This document shows, piece by piece, positions 21,694 to 43,640 of a stretch of 64,000 nt of DNA. The DNA is from Roseiarcus fermentans (GTDB lineage: Bacteria > Pseudomonadota > Alphaproteobacteria > Rhizobiales > Beijerinckiaceae). Below the pieces are notes generated by a model, which searched no databases, was not told where the DNA came from, and was given only the letters and a program-made list of their open reading frames with translations. The DNA lies in the NCBI RefSeq assembly GCF_003315135.1, contig NZ_QNRK01000016.1, positions 1 through 64,000 of the forward strand, given 5' to 3'. Made by a program: the position numbers and the translations under genes. Within the stretch, counting starts at the first letter, position 1; the number at the start of each line of letters is the position of its first letter.

Positions 21694-23034
21694 TCAGGCT
21701 TGCGCGGACAGCGCCGGCTGCGCCGAAGCCGTCGCGCTTTCGCGCGCCGCGCCCGGCGCGCTCGAGCGCGCGAGGGCGGTTGCGAACAGGAAAAGCGCCG
21801 CCTCGAGCCCGAACACGAGCGCGTAGGCTGCGAGCGGCGTCGCGCCCAGGCTCCGTCCCACGTCGACGAGGACGGTCGCGGCCACCCCGCCGGCGCCGTA
21901 GGCGATCGCCTGCGCGGCGCCCCAGAGACCCATGCGGGTCCCTTCGCGCGCCGCGGCGCCGGCGCTCGCGAGCCCCATCATGGAGCCGATCGCCGCGACC
22001 GCGTAGACGCCGTTGGACAGGCCGAGCGCGAACACCGAAGCGCGGAAGGCGTCGGGGCCGAGGCCGAGGAGACCGTTCGCGGCGATGGCCGCGAGCGAGA
22101 CGGCGGAGGCCGCGCAGCCGGCCGTCGTCCAGAGCCTGAGCGAGCCCAGGATCGGGCCGCCGATCGCCGTCGCCACGGTCGCGACGCCGAGCATCCCGAT
22201 CAGGACGCCGCCGTGCTGAAGTCCGGCGAGCTTCGTCGTCGACCCCGGAGTCATGCCGAACACGAGGCCCGCGAACGGCTCGATCAGCAGTTCCTGCGCG
22301 CCGTAGGCGAGCATCGACACGAAGATGAAGATGGTGAACCGGCGGACCGACCGCTCCCGCCAGATCTCGCCGAGCGCGACGAGGAACGACGACGGACGAT
22401 GGCTGCGGGCGGCGGCCGCCGCCGCAGGGACGCGGTCCTCGACGCCCAGCACGGCGAGCGTCGCCAGAACGAAGGCGATCGCGGCCACCGAACCGGTCAC
22501 CTCGATCAGGCGGGCGTTGGAGAACGGGTCGAGGAAATGGCCCGCGAGCGGCGCCGACACGGCGAAGCCGAGGATCATCATCATCCAGACCAACGAAGCC
22601 GCGGCGGCGCGGCGCTCCGGCGCGACGCGGGAGGCGAGCAGCGCCAGCACGGAGGTGCCGGCCGATCCCGCGCCCATGCCCACGAGCAGGAAGGCGACCG
22701 CCGCGACCGAGAGGCCGAGAACACGGGAATCCGCGGCGAGCGCTGTTCCGACCGCCGCGCCGAGCGCGCCGATGGCGAGCGTCGCCATGCCGCCGACGAT
22801 CCAGGGGGTGCGCCGGCCGCCGACGTCCGAGCCGTAGCCCCATGCGGGGCGGAAGATCTGCACCGCGTAATGGGAGGCGACCAGAAGGCCGGGAACGAGC
22901 GCGGGCAGCGCCAGTTCGACCACCATCACCCGATTGATCGTCGAGGTCATCAGGACGACGATCGCGCCGAGCGCGCTCTGCGCCAGCCCGAGCCGGACGA
23001 TGCCGGACCAGCCCAGCCCGCCGACGGCCTTCAC
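21694..23034 (-). CDS. bch2: Bch2/PucC-family (BCH2 clade) membrane transporter-like protein
   Basis: This about 446-residue, 12-helix major-facilitator-like protein is of the BCH2 (Orf428) clade of the PucC family: LGWSGIVRLGLAQSALGAIV, STINRVMVVELALPALVPG, HYAVQIFRPAWGYGSDVGGR and GMTPGSTTKLAGLQHGGVLI. Relatives help assemble antenna or pigment but its exact cargo is unknown. The GTG at 23034 has GGAG seven bases upstream; a GTG at 23061 is in frame but lacks one. Two PpsR-type operators lie 119-172 bases upstream, so it begins the bch2-bchP-tspO-orf-dxs operon. In most PGCs bchG lies between ppsR and this gene; here it does not. Confidence 0.92.
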   Translation of the reverse strand: MKAVGGLGWSGIVRLGLAQSALGAIVVLMTSTINRVMVVELALPALVPGLLVASHYAVQIFRPAWGYGSDVGGRRTPWIVGGMATLAIGALGAAVGTALAADSRVLGLSVAAVAFLLVGMGAGSAGTSVLALLASRVAPERRAAAASLVWMMMILGFAVSAPLAGHFLDPFSNARLIEVTGSVAAIAFVLATLAVLGVEDRVPAAAAAARSHRPSSFLVALGEIWRERSVRRFTIFIFVSMLAYGAQELLIEPFAGLVFGMTPGSTTKLAGLQHGGVLIGMLGVATVATAIGGPILGSLRLWTTAGCAASAVSLAAIAANGLLGLGPDAFRASVFALGLSNGVYAVAAIGSMMGLASAGAAAREGTRMGLWGAAQAIAYGAGGVAATVLVDVGRSLGATPLAAYALVFGLEAALFLFATALARSSAPGAARESATASAQPALSAQA

Positions 23035-23152
23035 GGCGCCGCTCCGGCGACGGTCCCGCACGGCGCCGGCCCGGCGACGGGCTCGGGCAGGTCCGGAACG
23101 GCTGTGGGCTGGAGACTCCGCATGGGCGAACCTAATCGCGGGCGCCTGTGCC

Positions 23153-33718: not shown

Positions 33719-34419
33719 TGACGAGCGGGACGTACCACACCCGGCGCGACGAGCTCGAGCGCTACTTCGACCGCACCGCGGTCGAGGCGTGGACGCGTCT
33801 GACCTCCGACGCGCCGGTCAGCCGGGTCCGCGCCACGGTGCGCGCCGGGCGCGACGCGATGCGCGAAACCATCGCGTCCTGGCTGCCGCAGGACCTTTGC
33901 GGCGCGCGCGTGCTCGACGCCGGCTGCGGCACGGGCGCGCTTTCGGTCGCGCTCGCCCGCCGGGGCGCAAACGTGCTCGGCGTCGACGTCTCCCCGACGC
34001 TGGTCGGGCTCGCCAACGAGCGCGCGCCGAAGGACCTCGCGCCCGGCCAGGCGACCTTCGCGGTCGGCGACATGCTCGATCCCGCGCTCGGCCGCTTCGA
34101 CTACGTGGTCGCGATGGACAGCCTAATCCACTACGAAGGGGCGGACATCGCCCGCACCGTGTCGGCGCTCGCGGCGCGCACGGAGGCGGCGGTCGTGTTC
34201 ACGATCGCCCCGCGCACGGCGCTCCTCACCCTGATGCACGCCGCCGGGCGGTTCCTGCCGCGCGGCGACCGCGCCCCGTCGATCGCACCGATCTCCAGGC
34301 GAGCGCTGGAAAAACGCCTGGACGGCGTCTTCGCCGATCCGCGCTGGCGGATCGCGCGGGGCCGGCGGATCGTGAGCGGCTTCTACATTTCCGAGGCCCT
34401 GGAGGTCGTTCGGCCATGA
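33718..34419 (+). CDS. bchM: Magnesium protoporphyrin IX O-methyltransferase
   Basis: BchM methylates Mg-protoporphyrin IX using S-adenosylmethionine. The 233-residue class I methyltransferase has the SAM motif VLDAGCGTGALSVALARRGA near residue 66, VLGVDVSPTLVGLANER, and the BchM-typical FDYVVAMDSLIHYEGAD. It is fused at both ends to its neighbours (TGATG with bchL, ATGA with lhaA). The next enzyme, the cyclase (acsF or bchE), is not in the window. Confidence 0.96.
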
Positions 34420-35864
34420 AAGCCGTCAGCGGAGCCATCGTCCGAGGGGTGATGCAGCTCGGGCCACGCTTCCTGCCGTTCGCCGATGCGGCGACGCCGG
34501 AGCTTCCGATGGAGCGGCTCCTGAGGCTGTCGCTGTTCCAGGTGACGGTCGGCATGGCCGTGGTGCTGCTGATCGGCACGCTGAACAGGGTGATGATCGT
34601 CGAGCTGGGCGTTCCGTCGTGGATCGTCGCCTGCATGCTGGCGTTGCCGCTGCTGTTCGCGCCGATGCGCGCGCTGATCGGCTTCCGCTCGGACCATCAC
34701 CGCTCGGTGCTCGGCTGGCGGCGCGTCCCCTACATCTGGTTCGGCACGCTGCTCCAGTTCGGCGGCTTCGCGATCATGCCGTTCGCGCTGATCCTCTTGT
34801 CGGGCGACACGCACTGGCCGGCGTGGGTCGGGCAGGCGGCGGCGGGACTGGCGTTCCTGCTCGTCGGCGCGGGGCTGCACACAGTGCAGACGATCGGGCT
34901 CGCGCTCGCGACCGACCTCGCGCCGGAGCGCGCCCGTCCGCGCGTCGTGGCGCTCCTGTGCGCGATGCTGCTCGTCGGCATGGCCGTCAGCGCCGTCGTG
35001 TTCGGGCTTCTGCTGCGTCATTTCAGCGAAGTGCGGCTCATCCAGGTCGTGCAGGGCGCGGCGCTCACGACCATGGCGCTGAACTGCGTCGCGCTGTGGA
35101 AGCAGGAGCCCCGCAACCTGCTGCGCGCCCCCGCGTCGTCGCGCCCGGCGCGCTTCCGGGACGCCTGGAGCGCCTTCGCCGGAGTGGCGCGGACCCGGCG
35201 CCTGCTGGTCGCGACCGCGCTCGGCACCGCCGGATTCAGCATGCAGGACATCCTGCTCGAGCCCTACGGCGGAAAGATCCTTCATCTTCCGGTCGGGGTG
35301 ACGACGGCGTTGACGGCGATGCTCGCGCTCGGAGGCGGCGCCGGACTGGTTCTCGCCGCGCGCCGGTTGGCCCGCGGGGCGGACCCGCACCGGGTCGCAG
35401 GCTACGGCGCGCTCGCCGGCGTCGTCGCGTTCGCCTGCGTGATCCTGTCCGCGCCGCTCGAGACGGGTCCGATGTTCGCCGTCGGGGTGGCGCTCATCGG
35501 CTTCGGCGGCGGTCTCTTCGCGCACGGCACGCTCACCGCCTCGATGGCGCTCGCAAAGCCCGAGGACCGGGGCCTCGCGCTCGGCGCCTGGAGCGCCTCG
35601 CAGGCGACCGCGGCGGGTCTCGCGGTCGCTTTCAGCGGCGTCGTCAACGACGTCGGTTCGTCGCTCGCGGTCGCCGGGGCATTCGGCGACGCGGTCGCAA
35701 GCCCGGTCACCGGCTACACCATCGTCTACGGCGTCGAAATCATTCTCTTGCTTGCGACCCTTGTCGCCATCGGGCCGCTCGTTCGCCCGCGCAGCGATCT
35801 CAGCAGCGGTTTGCCTTCGCATCTCGCTCCTGCGGTCGCTGGCGGACTTCAATCTGGAGGGTAG
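34416..35864 (+). CDS. lhaA: LhaA, PucC-family light-harvesting 1 assembly factor
   Basis: LhaA is a 12-helix membrane protein that helps assemble the LH1 antenna. The 482-residue product shares the PucC family start (LGPRFLPFADAATPELPMER, then FQVTVGMAVVLLIGTLNRVM), the loop FRSDHHRSVLGWRRVPYIWF and a middle GFSMQDILLEPYGGKILHLP. Position between bchM and puhA identifies it as LhaA rather than PucC. Ribosome site GGAGG precedes the ATG. It is clearly paralogous to pucC at 41432. Confidence 0.95.
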   Translation: MKAVSGAIVRGVMQLGPRFLPFADAATPELPMERLLRLSLFQVTVGMAVVLLIGTLNRVMIVELGVPSWIVACMLALPLLFAPMRALIGFRSDHHRSVLGWRRVPYIWFGTLLQFGGFAIMPFALILLSGDTHWPAWVGQAAAGLAFLLVGAGLHTVQTIGLALATDLAPERARPRVVALLCAMLLVGMAVSAVVFGLLLRHFSEVRLIQVVQGAALTTMALNCVALWKQEPRNLLRAPASSRPARFRDAWSAFAGVARTRRLLVATALGTAGFSMQDILLEPYGGKILHLPVGVTTALTAMLALGGGAGLVLAARRLARGADPHRVAGYGALAGVVAFACVILSAPLETGPMFAVGVALIGFGGGLFAHGTLTASMALAKPEDRGLALGAWSASQATAAGLAVAFSGVVNDVGSSLAVAGAFGDAVASPVTGYTIVYGVEIILLLATLVAIGPLVRPRSDLSSGLPSHLAPAVAGGLQSGG

Positions 35865-40817: not shown

Positions 40818-40973
40818 ATGGTCGACGATCCCAACAAAGTCTGGCCGACCGGTCTGACAATCGCGGAGTCCGAAGAACTTCACAAGCATGTCATCGACGG
40901 CACGCGCGTGTTCTTCGTCATCGCGATCTTCGCGCACTTTCTCACTTTCGTCTATTCGCCCTGGCTGCACTGA
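40818..40973 (+). CDS. pucB: Light-harvesting LH2 (B800-850) beta polypeptide
   Basis: The 51-residue antenna peptide has the polar N-terminus [18 protein letters not shown], one membrane helix and [14 protein letters not shown]. His40 is the B850 bacteriochlorophyll ligand. The [14 protein letters not shown] stretch is close to the LH2 beta chain of Rhodoblastus acidophilus, which separates it from LH1 (pufB). The ribosome site AAAGGAGG is near perfect. Two PpsR-type operators lie upstream, so expression should be oxygen- and light-controlled. Confidence 0.95.
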
Positions 40974-40985
40974 AAGGGGTAGGTC

Positions 40986-41213
40986 ATGAACCAAGGTAGA
41001 ATCTGGACGGTTGTCTCTCCGTCGATCGGGCTTCCGCTCATCATCGGCGGCGCGGCGATCACCGCTCTGTTGGTCCACTTCGCGGTCCTGTCGCACACGA
41101 CCTGGTACCCTGCTTACTGGGAAGGCCACCACGCCAAGGTGTCGGAAGCGACCTCGTCGGCCGTCTCGGCCCTCGAAGCGCCTGCGTATATCTACGAGGC
41201 CACCAAGGCCTGA
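40986..41213 (+). CDS. pucA: Light-harvesting LH2 (B800-850) alpha polypeptide
   Basis: The 75-residue peptide starts [19 protein letters not shown], the B800-binding LH2 alpha start, and has B850 ligand His31 and [12 protein letters not shown]. Tyr44 and Trp45 fall at the same numbers as in Rhodoblastus acidophilus LH2 alpha, where they hydrogen-bond the B850 acetyl groups; low-light B800-820 forms lose them. An 850-nm type is therefore expected. The C-terminal tail of about 28 residues after EG is longer than in R. acidophilus. It is 12 bases after pucB. Confidence 0.95.
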
Positions 41214-41431: not shown

Positions 41432-42874
41432 ATGAGCGGTGTTAGCCACAAAGTCGTGAACTTCTGGCTCAGCCTCGGGCCGCGCTTTCTTCCGTTCGCG
41501 GACGCGGCGAGCCCCGATCTGCCCCTTTCCAAACTCCTGCGGCTGTCGCTGTTTCAGGTCACGGTCGGCATGGCGCTGGTCCTGCTGGTCGGAACCTTGA
41601 ACAGGGTCATGATCGTCGAGTTGGAGGTGCCGGCTTCGCTGGTCGGCATCATGATCTCGCTGCCGCTGCTGTTCGCGCCGTTCCGCGCGCTGATCGGATT
41701 CCGCTCGGACATGCACCAGTCAGCGCTCGGCTGGCGGCGCGTGCCCTTCATGTACCGTGGCACGATGATCCAGTTCGGCGGCCTGGCGATGATGCCATTC
41801 GCGCTCCTGGTCCTCGCCCGGATGGGTGAGGCGGGGCATTCGCCGGTGTGGATTGGCTATGCCGGCGCCGGGATCTCGTTCCTTCTCGTCGGCGCAGGAC
41901 TTCACACCGTCCAGACCGTCGGCCTCGCGCTGGCGACGGACCTGGCGCCGGTCGAATCGCAGCCGAAGGTGGTCGGGCTGATGTATGTCATGCTGCTCGT
42001 CGGCATGATGGTCAGCGCGCTGGGATTCGGCTGGTTTCTCGCCGATTTCACCCCCGGTCGACTCGTTCAGGTGCTTCAGGCCGCCGCGGTCGCCACGATC
42101 GTTCTCAATTCGATCTCGCTGTGGAAGCAGGAGTCTCGCCATCAGGCGCGCAAGGCGCCGTCGGCGAGCCGCGCGCCGAGCTTCGCCGAAGCCTGGGCGA
42201 GCTTCACCCACGGCGATCGGGTCGTCCGGCGGCTGGTCGCCATTGGTCTGGGAACGATGGCGTTCAGCATGGAGGACGTCCTGCTCGAGCCCTATGGCGG
42301 GCAGGTGCTGCGTTTGACCGTCGGCGACACCACCAAGCTGACGGCGGCGCTGGCCTTCGGCGGACTGTTCGGGTTCTGGCTCGCCTCGCGGGTCCTCAGC
42401 CGCGGCGCCGATCCGTTCCGGATGGCGAGCTTCGGCGCCCTGGTCGGCGTGCCGGCGTTCGGCCTGGTGATCGGATCGGCGCCGGTGCTGTCGCCGTGGA
42501 TGTTCGGCCTGGGAACGGCGCTGATCGGCTTCGGCGCGGGCCTCTTCGGCCACGGGACGCTGACGGCGACCATGAACCTCGCGCCCAAGGGTCAGACCGG
42601 CCTCGCGCTCGGCGCCTGGGGCGCCGTGCAGGCCTCGGCCGCCGGGGTCGCAATCGCGCTCGGCGGCGTCATCCGCGACTCGGTCGCCGGTCTCGTGTCG
42701 GGAACGGCGTTCGGCGCAGCGGCCGGCTATGACGTCGTTTACGGAATCGAAATCGTCTTGCTTCTCGTCACGCTTGTGCTGATGTTCCCGCTCATCCGGC
42801 GGGAGAACAGGCCGGCGCGTGCATTGTCCACCGAGGGAACACGTCGAGAAGCCGCCGTCGCCGGCGAAACCTGA
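41432..42874 (+). CDS. pucC: PucC, LH2 antenna assembly membrane protein
   Basis: The 480-residue, 12-helix protein begins LGPRFLPFADAASPDLPLSK and has FQVTVGMALVLLVGTLNRVM, FRSDMHQSALGWRRVPFMYR, FSMEDVLLEPYGGQVLRLTV and GLFGHGTLTATMNLAPKGQT. PucC is needed for LH2 formation. It is closely paralogous to lhaA in this window and more distantly to bch2. The ATG at 41432 gives the family N-terminus; the open frame further upstream runs through the intergenic hairpins. It lies 218 bases after pucA, and the repeat-tailed protein follows after 10 bases. Confidence 0.94.
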   Translation: MSGVSHKVVNFWLSLGPRFLPFADAASPDLPLSKLLRLSLFQVTVGMALVLLVGTLNRVMIVELEVPASLVGIMISLPLLFAPFRALIGFRSDMHQSALGWRRVPFMYRGTMIQFGGLAMMPFALLVLARMGEAGHSPVWIGYAGAGISFLLVGAGLHTVQTVGLALATDLAPVESQPKVVGLMYVMLLVGMMVSALGFGWFLADFTPGRLVQVLQAAAVATIVLNSISLWKQESRHQARKAPSASRAPSFAEAWASFTHGDRVVRRLVAIGLGTMAFSMEDVLLEPYGGQVLRLTVGDTTKLTAALAFGGLFGFWLASRVLSRGADPFRMASFGALVGVPAFGLVIGSAPVLSPWMFGLGTALIGFGAGLFGHGTLTATMNLAPKGQTGLALGAWGAVQASAAGVAIALGGVIRDSVAGLVSGTAFGAAAGYDVVYGIEIVLLLVTLVLMFPLIRRENRPARALSTEGTRREAAVAGET

Positions 42875-42884
42875 GCAGGGCACA

Positions 42885-43640
42885 ATGGCACACGCAATCT
42901 CGCGCATCTTTGCGACCAAAGCCGACGCCGATGCGGCGATCGAGGATCTCGGCCGGAGCGGCTTTCCGCCGGAGGCGATCTTCGTCGTCGCTCCGCCGGC
43001 CGCTGCGGCCGCCGCCTCGGCGTCGGACAGCCGGGCGGTCGCGGACCAGATCGCCGACAGAATCGCGAAAGGCTTCATCCTCAGGCGCGATGCGGAGGTC
43101 TACGCGAGACATGTCGCGCAAGGGGCGGTTTTCGTGACGGTCTACGCGCCGTTCGGCGCCGGGCGCAAGGCGACGAACTGTCTCGATCGGCGCAATCCGG
43201 TCGATCCAGGCATTCCCGCCGCTCCGGTGCGGCGGCCGGCGGCGTATGACGAGGCGACGCCCTTGTCGTCCACGCTGCGGCTGCCGGTGCTGTCCTCCCA
43301 CCCGACGCCGTTCGGCGCGGTCTCGGGCCTGCCCTCGCTGCTTTCGGCCAAGCGCGCCGACAAGTCGGTGTTCGAGGGGCCGGCGCCGCTGTCGCACCTG
43401 CTGGATCTGCCGGTCATGACGGCCGGAGGAGAGACCACGTCGGCGGCCATGGGCCTGCCGCTGCTGACGGCCAAGGGGAAGCCGACCGCGCTCGGACTGC
43501 CGCTGGTGACGGCCAAAGGCTCGCCGATGTTCTGGGGGCTGCCGCTGCTGACGGCCAAGGGGAAACCGACGTCGCTGGGGCTGCCGCTGGTGACGGCCAG
43601 GGGCAGGCCGACGAGCCTCGGGCTGCCGCTGTTGTGGTGA
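42885..43640 (+). CDS. Stress-domain protein with a 14-residue GLPLLT repeat tail, after pucC
   Basis: The product has 251 residues. Residues 1-108 look like a YflT/general-stress-protein-17M-type domain: ISRIFATKADADAAIEDLGR, then RRDAEVYARHVAQGAVFVTV and a closing LDRRNPVDPG. After a Pro/Ala linker, residues 131-251 are repeats of about 14 residues of the form GLPL(L/V)TAKGKPTSL. The last four and a half are nearly identical and the first three (LRLPVLSS, VSGLPSLLSAK, LDLPVMTAGG) are diverged; the last residues are GLPLLW. It begins 10 bases after pucC, so it is likely co-transcribed with the LH2 genes. I do not recognise this architecture and give no function. Intact frame with codon use like its neighbours. 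Confidence 0.85.
   Translation: MAHAISRIFATKADADAAIEDLGRSGFPPEAIFVVAPPAAAAAASASDSRAVADQIADRIAKGFILRRDAEVYARHVAQGAVFVTVYAPFGAGRKATNCLDRRNPVDPGIPAAPVRRPAAYDEATPLSSTLRLPVLSSHPTPFGAVSGLPSLLSAKRADKSVFEGPAPLSHLLDLPVMTAGGETTSAAMGLPLLTAKGKPTALGLPLVTAKGSPMFWGLPLLTAKGKPTSLGLPLVTARGRPTSLGLPLLW
43458..43637 (+). repeat. In-gene tandem repeat encoding the GLPLLT units
   Basis: Units of 42 bases, in an 84-base higher-order pattern (GLPLLTAKGKPT then GLPLVTAKG), with DNA nearly identical between copies (for example CTGCCGCTGCTGACGGCCAA at two positions). The near-identity suggests recent expansion, so copy number may vary between strains. Confidence 0.75.

Follow-up and report, generated by a model that had tools for sequence, protein, structure and literature searches.

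A repeat-tailed protein encoded in the putative LH2 operon of Roseiarcus fermentans and its probable kinship with the LH2-gamma of Rhodopseudomonas

The 64,000-nucleotide stretch of Roseiarcus fermentans DNA analyzed here (contig NZ_QNRK01000016.1, positions 1 to 64,000; the window) carries a putative operon for light-harvesting complex 2 (LH2), in which pucC is followed by a gene for a protein with an N-terminal domain and a repeat tail. Its product is probably a partner of LH2 and a member of the family that gave rise to the LH2-gamma of Rhodopseudomonas. Judging from homology and gene order, the tail would follow the LH2 ring at its cytoplasmic rim, with about one tail unit per alpha/beta pair, and the N-terminal domain would stay in the cytoplasm. 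Bracing the ring, setting its size, or helping to assemble it would be likelier roles than holding pigment. Sequence comparison suggests that ribbons related to gamma are encoded by many photosynthetic bacteria beyond Rhodopseudomonas.

LH2-gamma of Rhodopseudomonas palustris (RPA1495, UniProt Q6N9P5, PDB 7ZCU/7ZDI/7ZE3/7ZE8) is described from cryo-electron microscopy as six approximately repeated units that form a wavy ribbon, which lies in the plane of the membrane close to its cytoplasmic face. It encloses six of the nine alpha/beta pairs, and its serines bind six extra bacteriochlorophylls with a mean spacing of 27.6 Å (PMC9618040). A BLASTp search by its authors found gamma in Rhodopseudomonas only, and they call the reason for the partial ring cover unclear (PMC9618040). 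The same 10.8-kDa protein was found with a low-light LH2 (PMC9897067). Nine gamma loci were fetched, two of which begin inside gamma at a contig end, and all seven with upstream sequence have the order pucB-pucA-pucC-family member-gamma. The family member among the open reading frames (ORFs) of the gamma loci matches the family profile at E 9e-35 to 5e-41, and its N-terminal domain is homologous. In its tail, two window-type units stand alongside four to five of the gamma type, and identity to gamma is 52-64%. Since these tails join both unit types in one 16-residue register, directly upstream of gamma, gamma appears to have arisen from the wider repeat-tailed family as a tail-only form. The direct match between gamma and the family, without the Rhodopseudomonas intermediates, is weaker: a profile-profile comparison of gamma with the family tails aligns 85 columns without gaps at a probability of 88% and an E of 3e-6.

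Rhodopseudomonas also has longer gamma-type proteins of 145 amino acids (L128 6165-6599, L129 225-659), from the Rhodopseudomonas sp. Cfx3-05 metagenome-assembled genome and R. pseudopalustris. By eye, they have nine anchors at 16-residue steps, a length sufficient for the whole nonameric ring, compared with the six units solved. The family matrix calls six and five of the nine units in the two proteins, and the ninth unit is window-type. A search with gamma gave no match in viral contigs and, in a search run without a positive control, none in 15 genomes of the family of genome G619. The single match among 249 genomes of the order (E 1.2e-4), with no puc gene near, was judged to be the antisense of an unrelated tandem repeat and rejected. 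Searches of the open-access literature, which leaves subscription papers, preprints, and supplements uncovered, gave no paper whose listing refers to the repeat-tailed family and none on RPA1494, which, to judge by gene order in relatives, is probably the R. palustris gene upstream of RPA1495.

The full architecture, N-terminal domain plus tail, tracks LH2 exactly within 397 genomes of the window's family. A first scan of genome contigs with the window protein gave no match, a first search matched 14 of 149 genomes of this family at E<=0.001, and a 12-row profile matched 110 of the 397 at E<=1e-5. Matches at E<=5e-23 that extend into the tail occur in 22 genomes; among the matches listed, the weaker ones outside these 22 cover the N-terminal domain only and end before model position 121. 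All 22 genomes have LH2 genes, with the repeat-tailed gene beside pucBA. The pucC gene is on the same stretch in 21 of the 22 loci, and the remaining genome (G143, contig edge) has its top PUCC match on another contig. PUCC is present in 134 of the 397 genomes, and 24 have three or more PUCC matches. These 24 are the 22 full-architecture genomes plus G241 and G297, in which a split gene accounts for the third match and the window's LH2 alpha has no match. In genus g33, LH2 alpha is matched in 5 of 11 genomes, and the identical five carry the repeat-tailed protein.

The order-level search matched 20 of 397 genomes at E<=1e-14 and the class-level search 14 of 376 at E<=1e-10, the window's genome included in each; both counts rest on strong matches. 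All 19 other order-level matches adjoin pucB, pucA, and pucC. Beside pucBA lie 10 of the 13 other class-level matches, and the remaining three (L160-L162) share the N-terminal domain only. In all, 58 sampled genomes (22+19+10+7) have the family in their puc loci. Of these, 51, counting the window's, represent 19 labelled families of the class; the other seven are Rhodopseudomonas, a set taken as non-overlapping with the rest. The proximity of homologues to puc genes, which the original prediction proposed as a check, is borne out by these counts. The contrary case, homologues mostly in non-phototrophs or away from puc, fails for the full architecture, although some paralogues do sit elsewhere.

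The repeat statistics cover 59 family proteins, including the window's, and relatedness among them is not corrected. The counts leave out proteins with only the N-terminal domain (L028, L160, L161, L162) and paralogues away from puc (L033, L034, L075-L079), and L002, the antisense strand of the window's own gene, is set aside. Single called units may be false because the unit threshold was taken from shuffled tails, at their 99.5th percentile. The family repeat period is 16 residues: of 322 unit spacings, 220 equal 16 or one of its multiples. Anchor spacings in the window tail are 16, 26, 16, 14, 14, 14, and 14, so that the last five anchors (192-206-220-234-248) are 14 apart, and the tail closes with Trp. 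The window's 14-residue unit seems to be a locally contracted form of the 16-residue one, since the same-genus relative L069 keeps its last six anchors in 16-residue units with the same final Trp. A 14-residue stretch could still bridge the 27.6 Å pitch. The 14-residue repeats originally described therefore hold for the end of the window tail, as does the closing Trp, but not for the family period. The original idea of a tail suited to lying on a membrane or to contacting one partner in several copies agrees with its apparent relation to the gamma ribbon, which binds several alpha/beta pairs in the plane of the membrane.

Unit chemistry bears on pigment binding. Gamma has Ser at P-3, its ligand position relative to the anchor Pro, in six of six units (sequence of Q6N9P5); the 58 gamma units in the unit survey were picked by their Ser motif, and their P-3 Ser count is unused. 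Among 329 family units outside Rhodopseudomonas, P-3 Ser occurs in 5, the usual residues being Leu (39%) and Phe (32%), and of the eight units in the window protein one has it, VSGLP at anchor residue 150. Because this position is mostly Leu or Phe in the family, an extra bacteriochlorophyll on the window tail is doubtful. The tail might instead bind extra B800-type bacteriochlorophylls through Ser or Thr shifted to P-6 to P-4, which we consider unlikely. Ser or Thr is present within P-6..P-3 in 310 of the 329 units, with Ser at P-6 in 253, and the homologous gamma does bind six bacteriochlorophylls (PMC9618040). However, the homologous ligand position is Ser in just the five units mentioned, and Ser adjoining Pro is also common in plain turns.

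The position of the gene within the puc locus varies: it may follow pucC, sit in the interval that separates pucA from pucC, run divergently to pucB, or lie tail-to-tail with pucA (L151). In two loci (L155 6567-8142, L157 6501-7973) the repeat-tailed gene separates one pucBA pair from another, and pucC follows the second pair. The gene is divergent from five tandem pucBA pairs in L029 (7121-9909) and from three at a contig edge in L030 (33-1553). Alpha chains of L029 are up to 94% identical to the PDB B800/850 alpha chain used for comparison, which we take to be from Rhodoblastus, and 94% is also the best identity for the g33 genomes. Usable pucC-to-gene gaps number 32 of 35 (L109, L112, and L125 are frame artefacts), and seven pucA gaps that are not computable are left out. 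The gap is -4 to 81 nucleotides in 20 of the 32 loci and 574-744 nucleotides in 10.

The short gaps favor a second explanation, in which the tail would gather a row of alpha/beta pairs together with PucC, the N-terminal domain would dock to PucC or the membrane, and the protein would leave the finished ring, gamma being a later permanent derivative. LH2 assembly is directed by PucC (PMC4949548), and the N-terminal domain is kept in family members and absent from the structural gamma. Such a transient ruler is nevertheless the less probable reading, as the mature complex contains gamma itself as a subunit (PMC9618040) and the 10 long gaps do not favor it. Furthermore, the gene in several genomes separates pucA from pucC or runs divergently to pucB, which links it to LH2 as a whole.

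Several observations weigh against an LH2 partner of gamma kinship, the scarcity of P-3 Ser in the family and in the window protein among them. Family tails have 1 to 11 units, so the unit number is not simply equal to the ring size, and unit spacing is irregular in the tails of genus g33. In the direct search of the PDB, gamma ranks second among 177,635 sequences with a non-significant E of 1.5, behind an unrelated protein at E 0.2. When gamma is scored by the family unit matrix, 122 of 20000 column permutations equal it, which is modest, and the first window-type unit of the Rhodopseudomonas tail in L125 scores low, at 3.3. We know of no gamma in the LH2 structures of Rhodoblastus acidophilus. 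The excerpts of the two LH2 reports give the tail-only gamma in the complex and not the N-domain protein (PMC9618040, PMC9897067). Finally, family-type paralogues away from puc exist, each in a genome with a further, puc-linked member.

Three of these paralogues are in the window's own genome, L075 (9712-10551 and 11032-11601, contig C10) and L034 (9699-10250, contig C6), and carry units such as TPLSDFFGWSVL. The C10 pair is near two Hsp20 genes, and the C6 paralogue has a bacterial globin and a sigma-54 activator in its vicinity. L033, L076, L077, L078, and L079 are short paralogues with few units and have no puc gene in the fetched stretch. A generic stress protein with a low-complexity tail, co-transcribed with puc by chance, would accord with the Hsp20 neighbors and with N-domain relatives in many genomes without PUCC, but it is very improbable given the exact tracking of LH2 over 397 genomes, the puc loci across the order and class, and the apparent homology of the tail to LH2-gamma.

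The partner reading extends to a broader picture, which is conceivable if still the less probable case. Alphaproteobacterial LH2 rings with the gene in their operon may carry a ribbon at the cytoplasmic rim, or be built on one, and this ribbon would have a folded handle. How many units it has, and their chemistry, would set the ring cover and whether extra bacteriochlorophyll is added. Through the handle the cell could attach the antenna, set its size, or regulate it, and gamma would be one pigment-binding, handle-less offshoot. Reported as confined to Rhodopseudomonas, gamma would now be tied via its tail to a family in the puc loci of the 58 sampled genomes. If true, the textbook two-polypeptide LH2 antenna has a common third partner, which could escape notice through purification or symmetry averaging.

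The features of the locus are listed in Table 1. As originally stated, 10 bases separate the gene from pucC (pucC stop 42872-42874, ATG 42885); the two share a strand, in line with the probable operon membership proposed originally. Codon-position guanine-plus-cytosine content (0.68/0.58/0.87) and protein conservation across many genera indicate that the ORF is a real gene. The best NCBIfam model for pucB carries the name LH1 beta, and the NCBIfam LH1 alpha model is below its cut-off on pucA. The pucA gene is the sole match to the window's LH2 alpha within its own genome at E<=1e-5, and its product contains PAYW, a motif of LH2 alpha chains. Upstream of pucB are an aminotransferase-family gene, read as hemA, and a DUF3623 gene. 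No sigma-70 site (0.3 expected) turned up in the promoter and terminator scan, which gave two terminator-like sites (2.5 expected), both outside the pucC-to-gene interval; these counts are near or below chance expectation. Two further PucC-like genes lie in the window at 34416-35855 and 21694-23061, one a strong PUCC match and the other a 30% tblastn match, and by eye their neighbors resemble a photosynthesis gene cluster.

Table 1. Features of the LH2 operon and of the repeat-tailed protein in the window
Feature	Position	Strand	Basis or detail
Repeat-tailed LH2-operon protein gene	42885..43640	+	251 amino acids, ATG 42885 to stop 43640
N-terminal alpha/beta domain, ~residues 1-105	42885..43199	+	AlphaFold2 block-mean pLDDT
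Repeat tail, eight units	43257..43637	+	Pro-anchored unit scan
Tail Pro anchors, residues 134, 150, 176, 192, 206, 220, 234, 248	codons at 43284, 43332, 43410, 43458, 43500, 43542, 43584, 43626	+	
pucB, LH2 beta	40818..40973	+	Pfam LHC 36.2 bits, cut-off 23
pucA, LH2 alpha	40986..41213	+	Pfam LHC 44.8 bits, passes cut-off
pucC, LH2 assembly transporter-like protein	41432..42874	+	PUCC 498 bits, passes cut-off

With a nine-sequence alignment, AlphaFold2 gives the N-terminal residues 1-110 a block-mean predicted local distance difference test score (pLDDT) of 65-91, which is fair confidence. The tail in isolation has a pLDDT of 30-47, a fold predicted without confidence. PDB searches with the whole window protein or the family profile gave nothing better than E 0.7, and Foldseek gave weak matches alone, such as NDP kinases (best E 0.035). 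The original view that no described factor has this architecture is supported, within the open-access literature, for the whole protein, whereas the tail has a described relative in LH2-gamma.

When compared to LH2-gamma, the family tails share 16-residue units in the same register with a GxP-hydrophobic core. Both genes lie in putative LH2 operons, gamma in seven relatives and the window gene 10 bases after pucC. In contrast, gamma has 97 amino acids without an N-terminal domain, and the window protein has 251 with a predicted folded one. Gamma has six units, all with P-3 Ser, and the window protein has eight with one, at spacings that mix 16, 26, and 14 (four of 14). The window protein is not filed as gamma because P-3 Ser is so rare in its own units and in those of the family. 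The YflT/GSP17M-like label (PF11181) given originally to the N-terminal domain is weakly supported: a weak match over residues 8-36 and a predicted small alpha/beta domain agree with it, but the score is 14.2 bits against the Pfam cut-off of 26.2, the repeat tail lies outside the match, and PF11181 reaches E<=0.1 in only 3 of 45 family members, one of them the window's. In Rhodobacter, pucE and pucD are also genes 3' of pucC in the LH2 operon, and PucE is termed a gamma chain.
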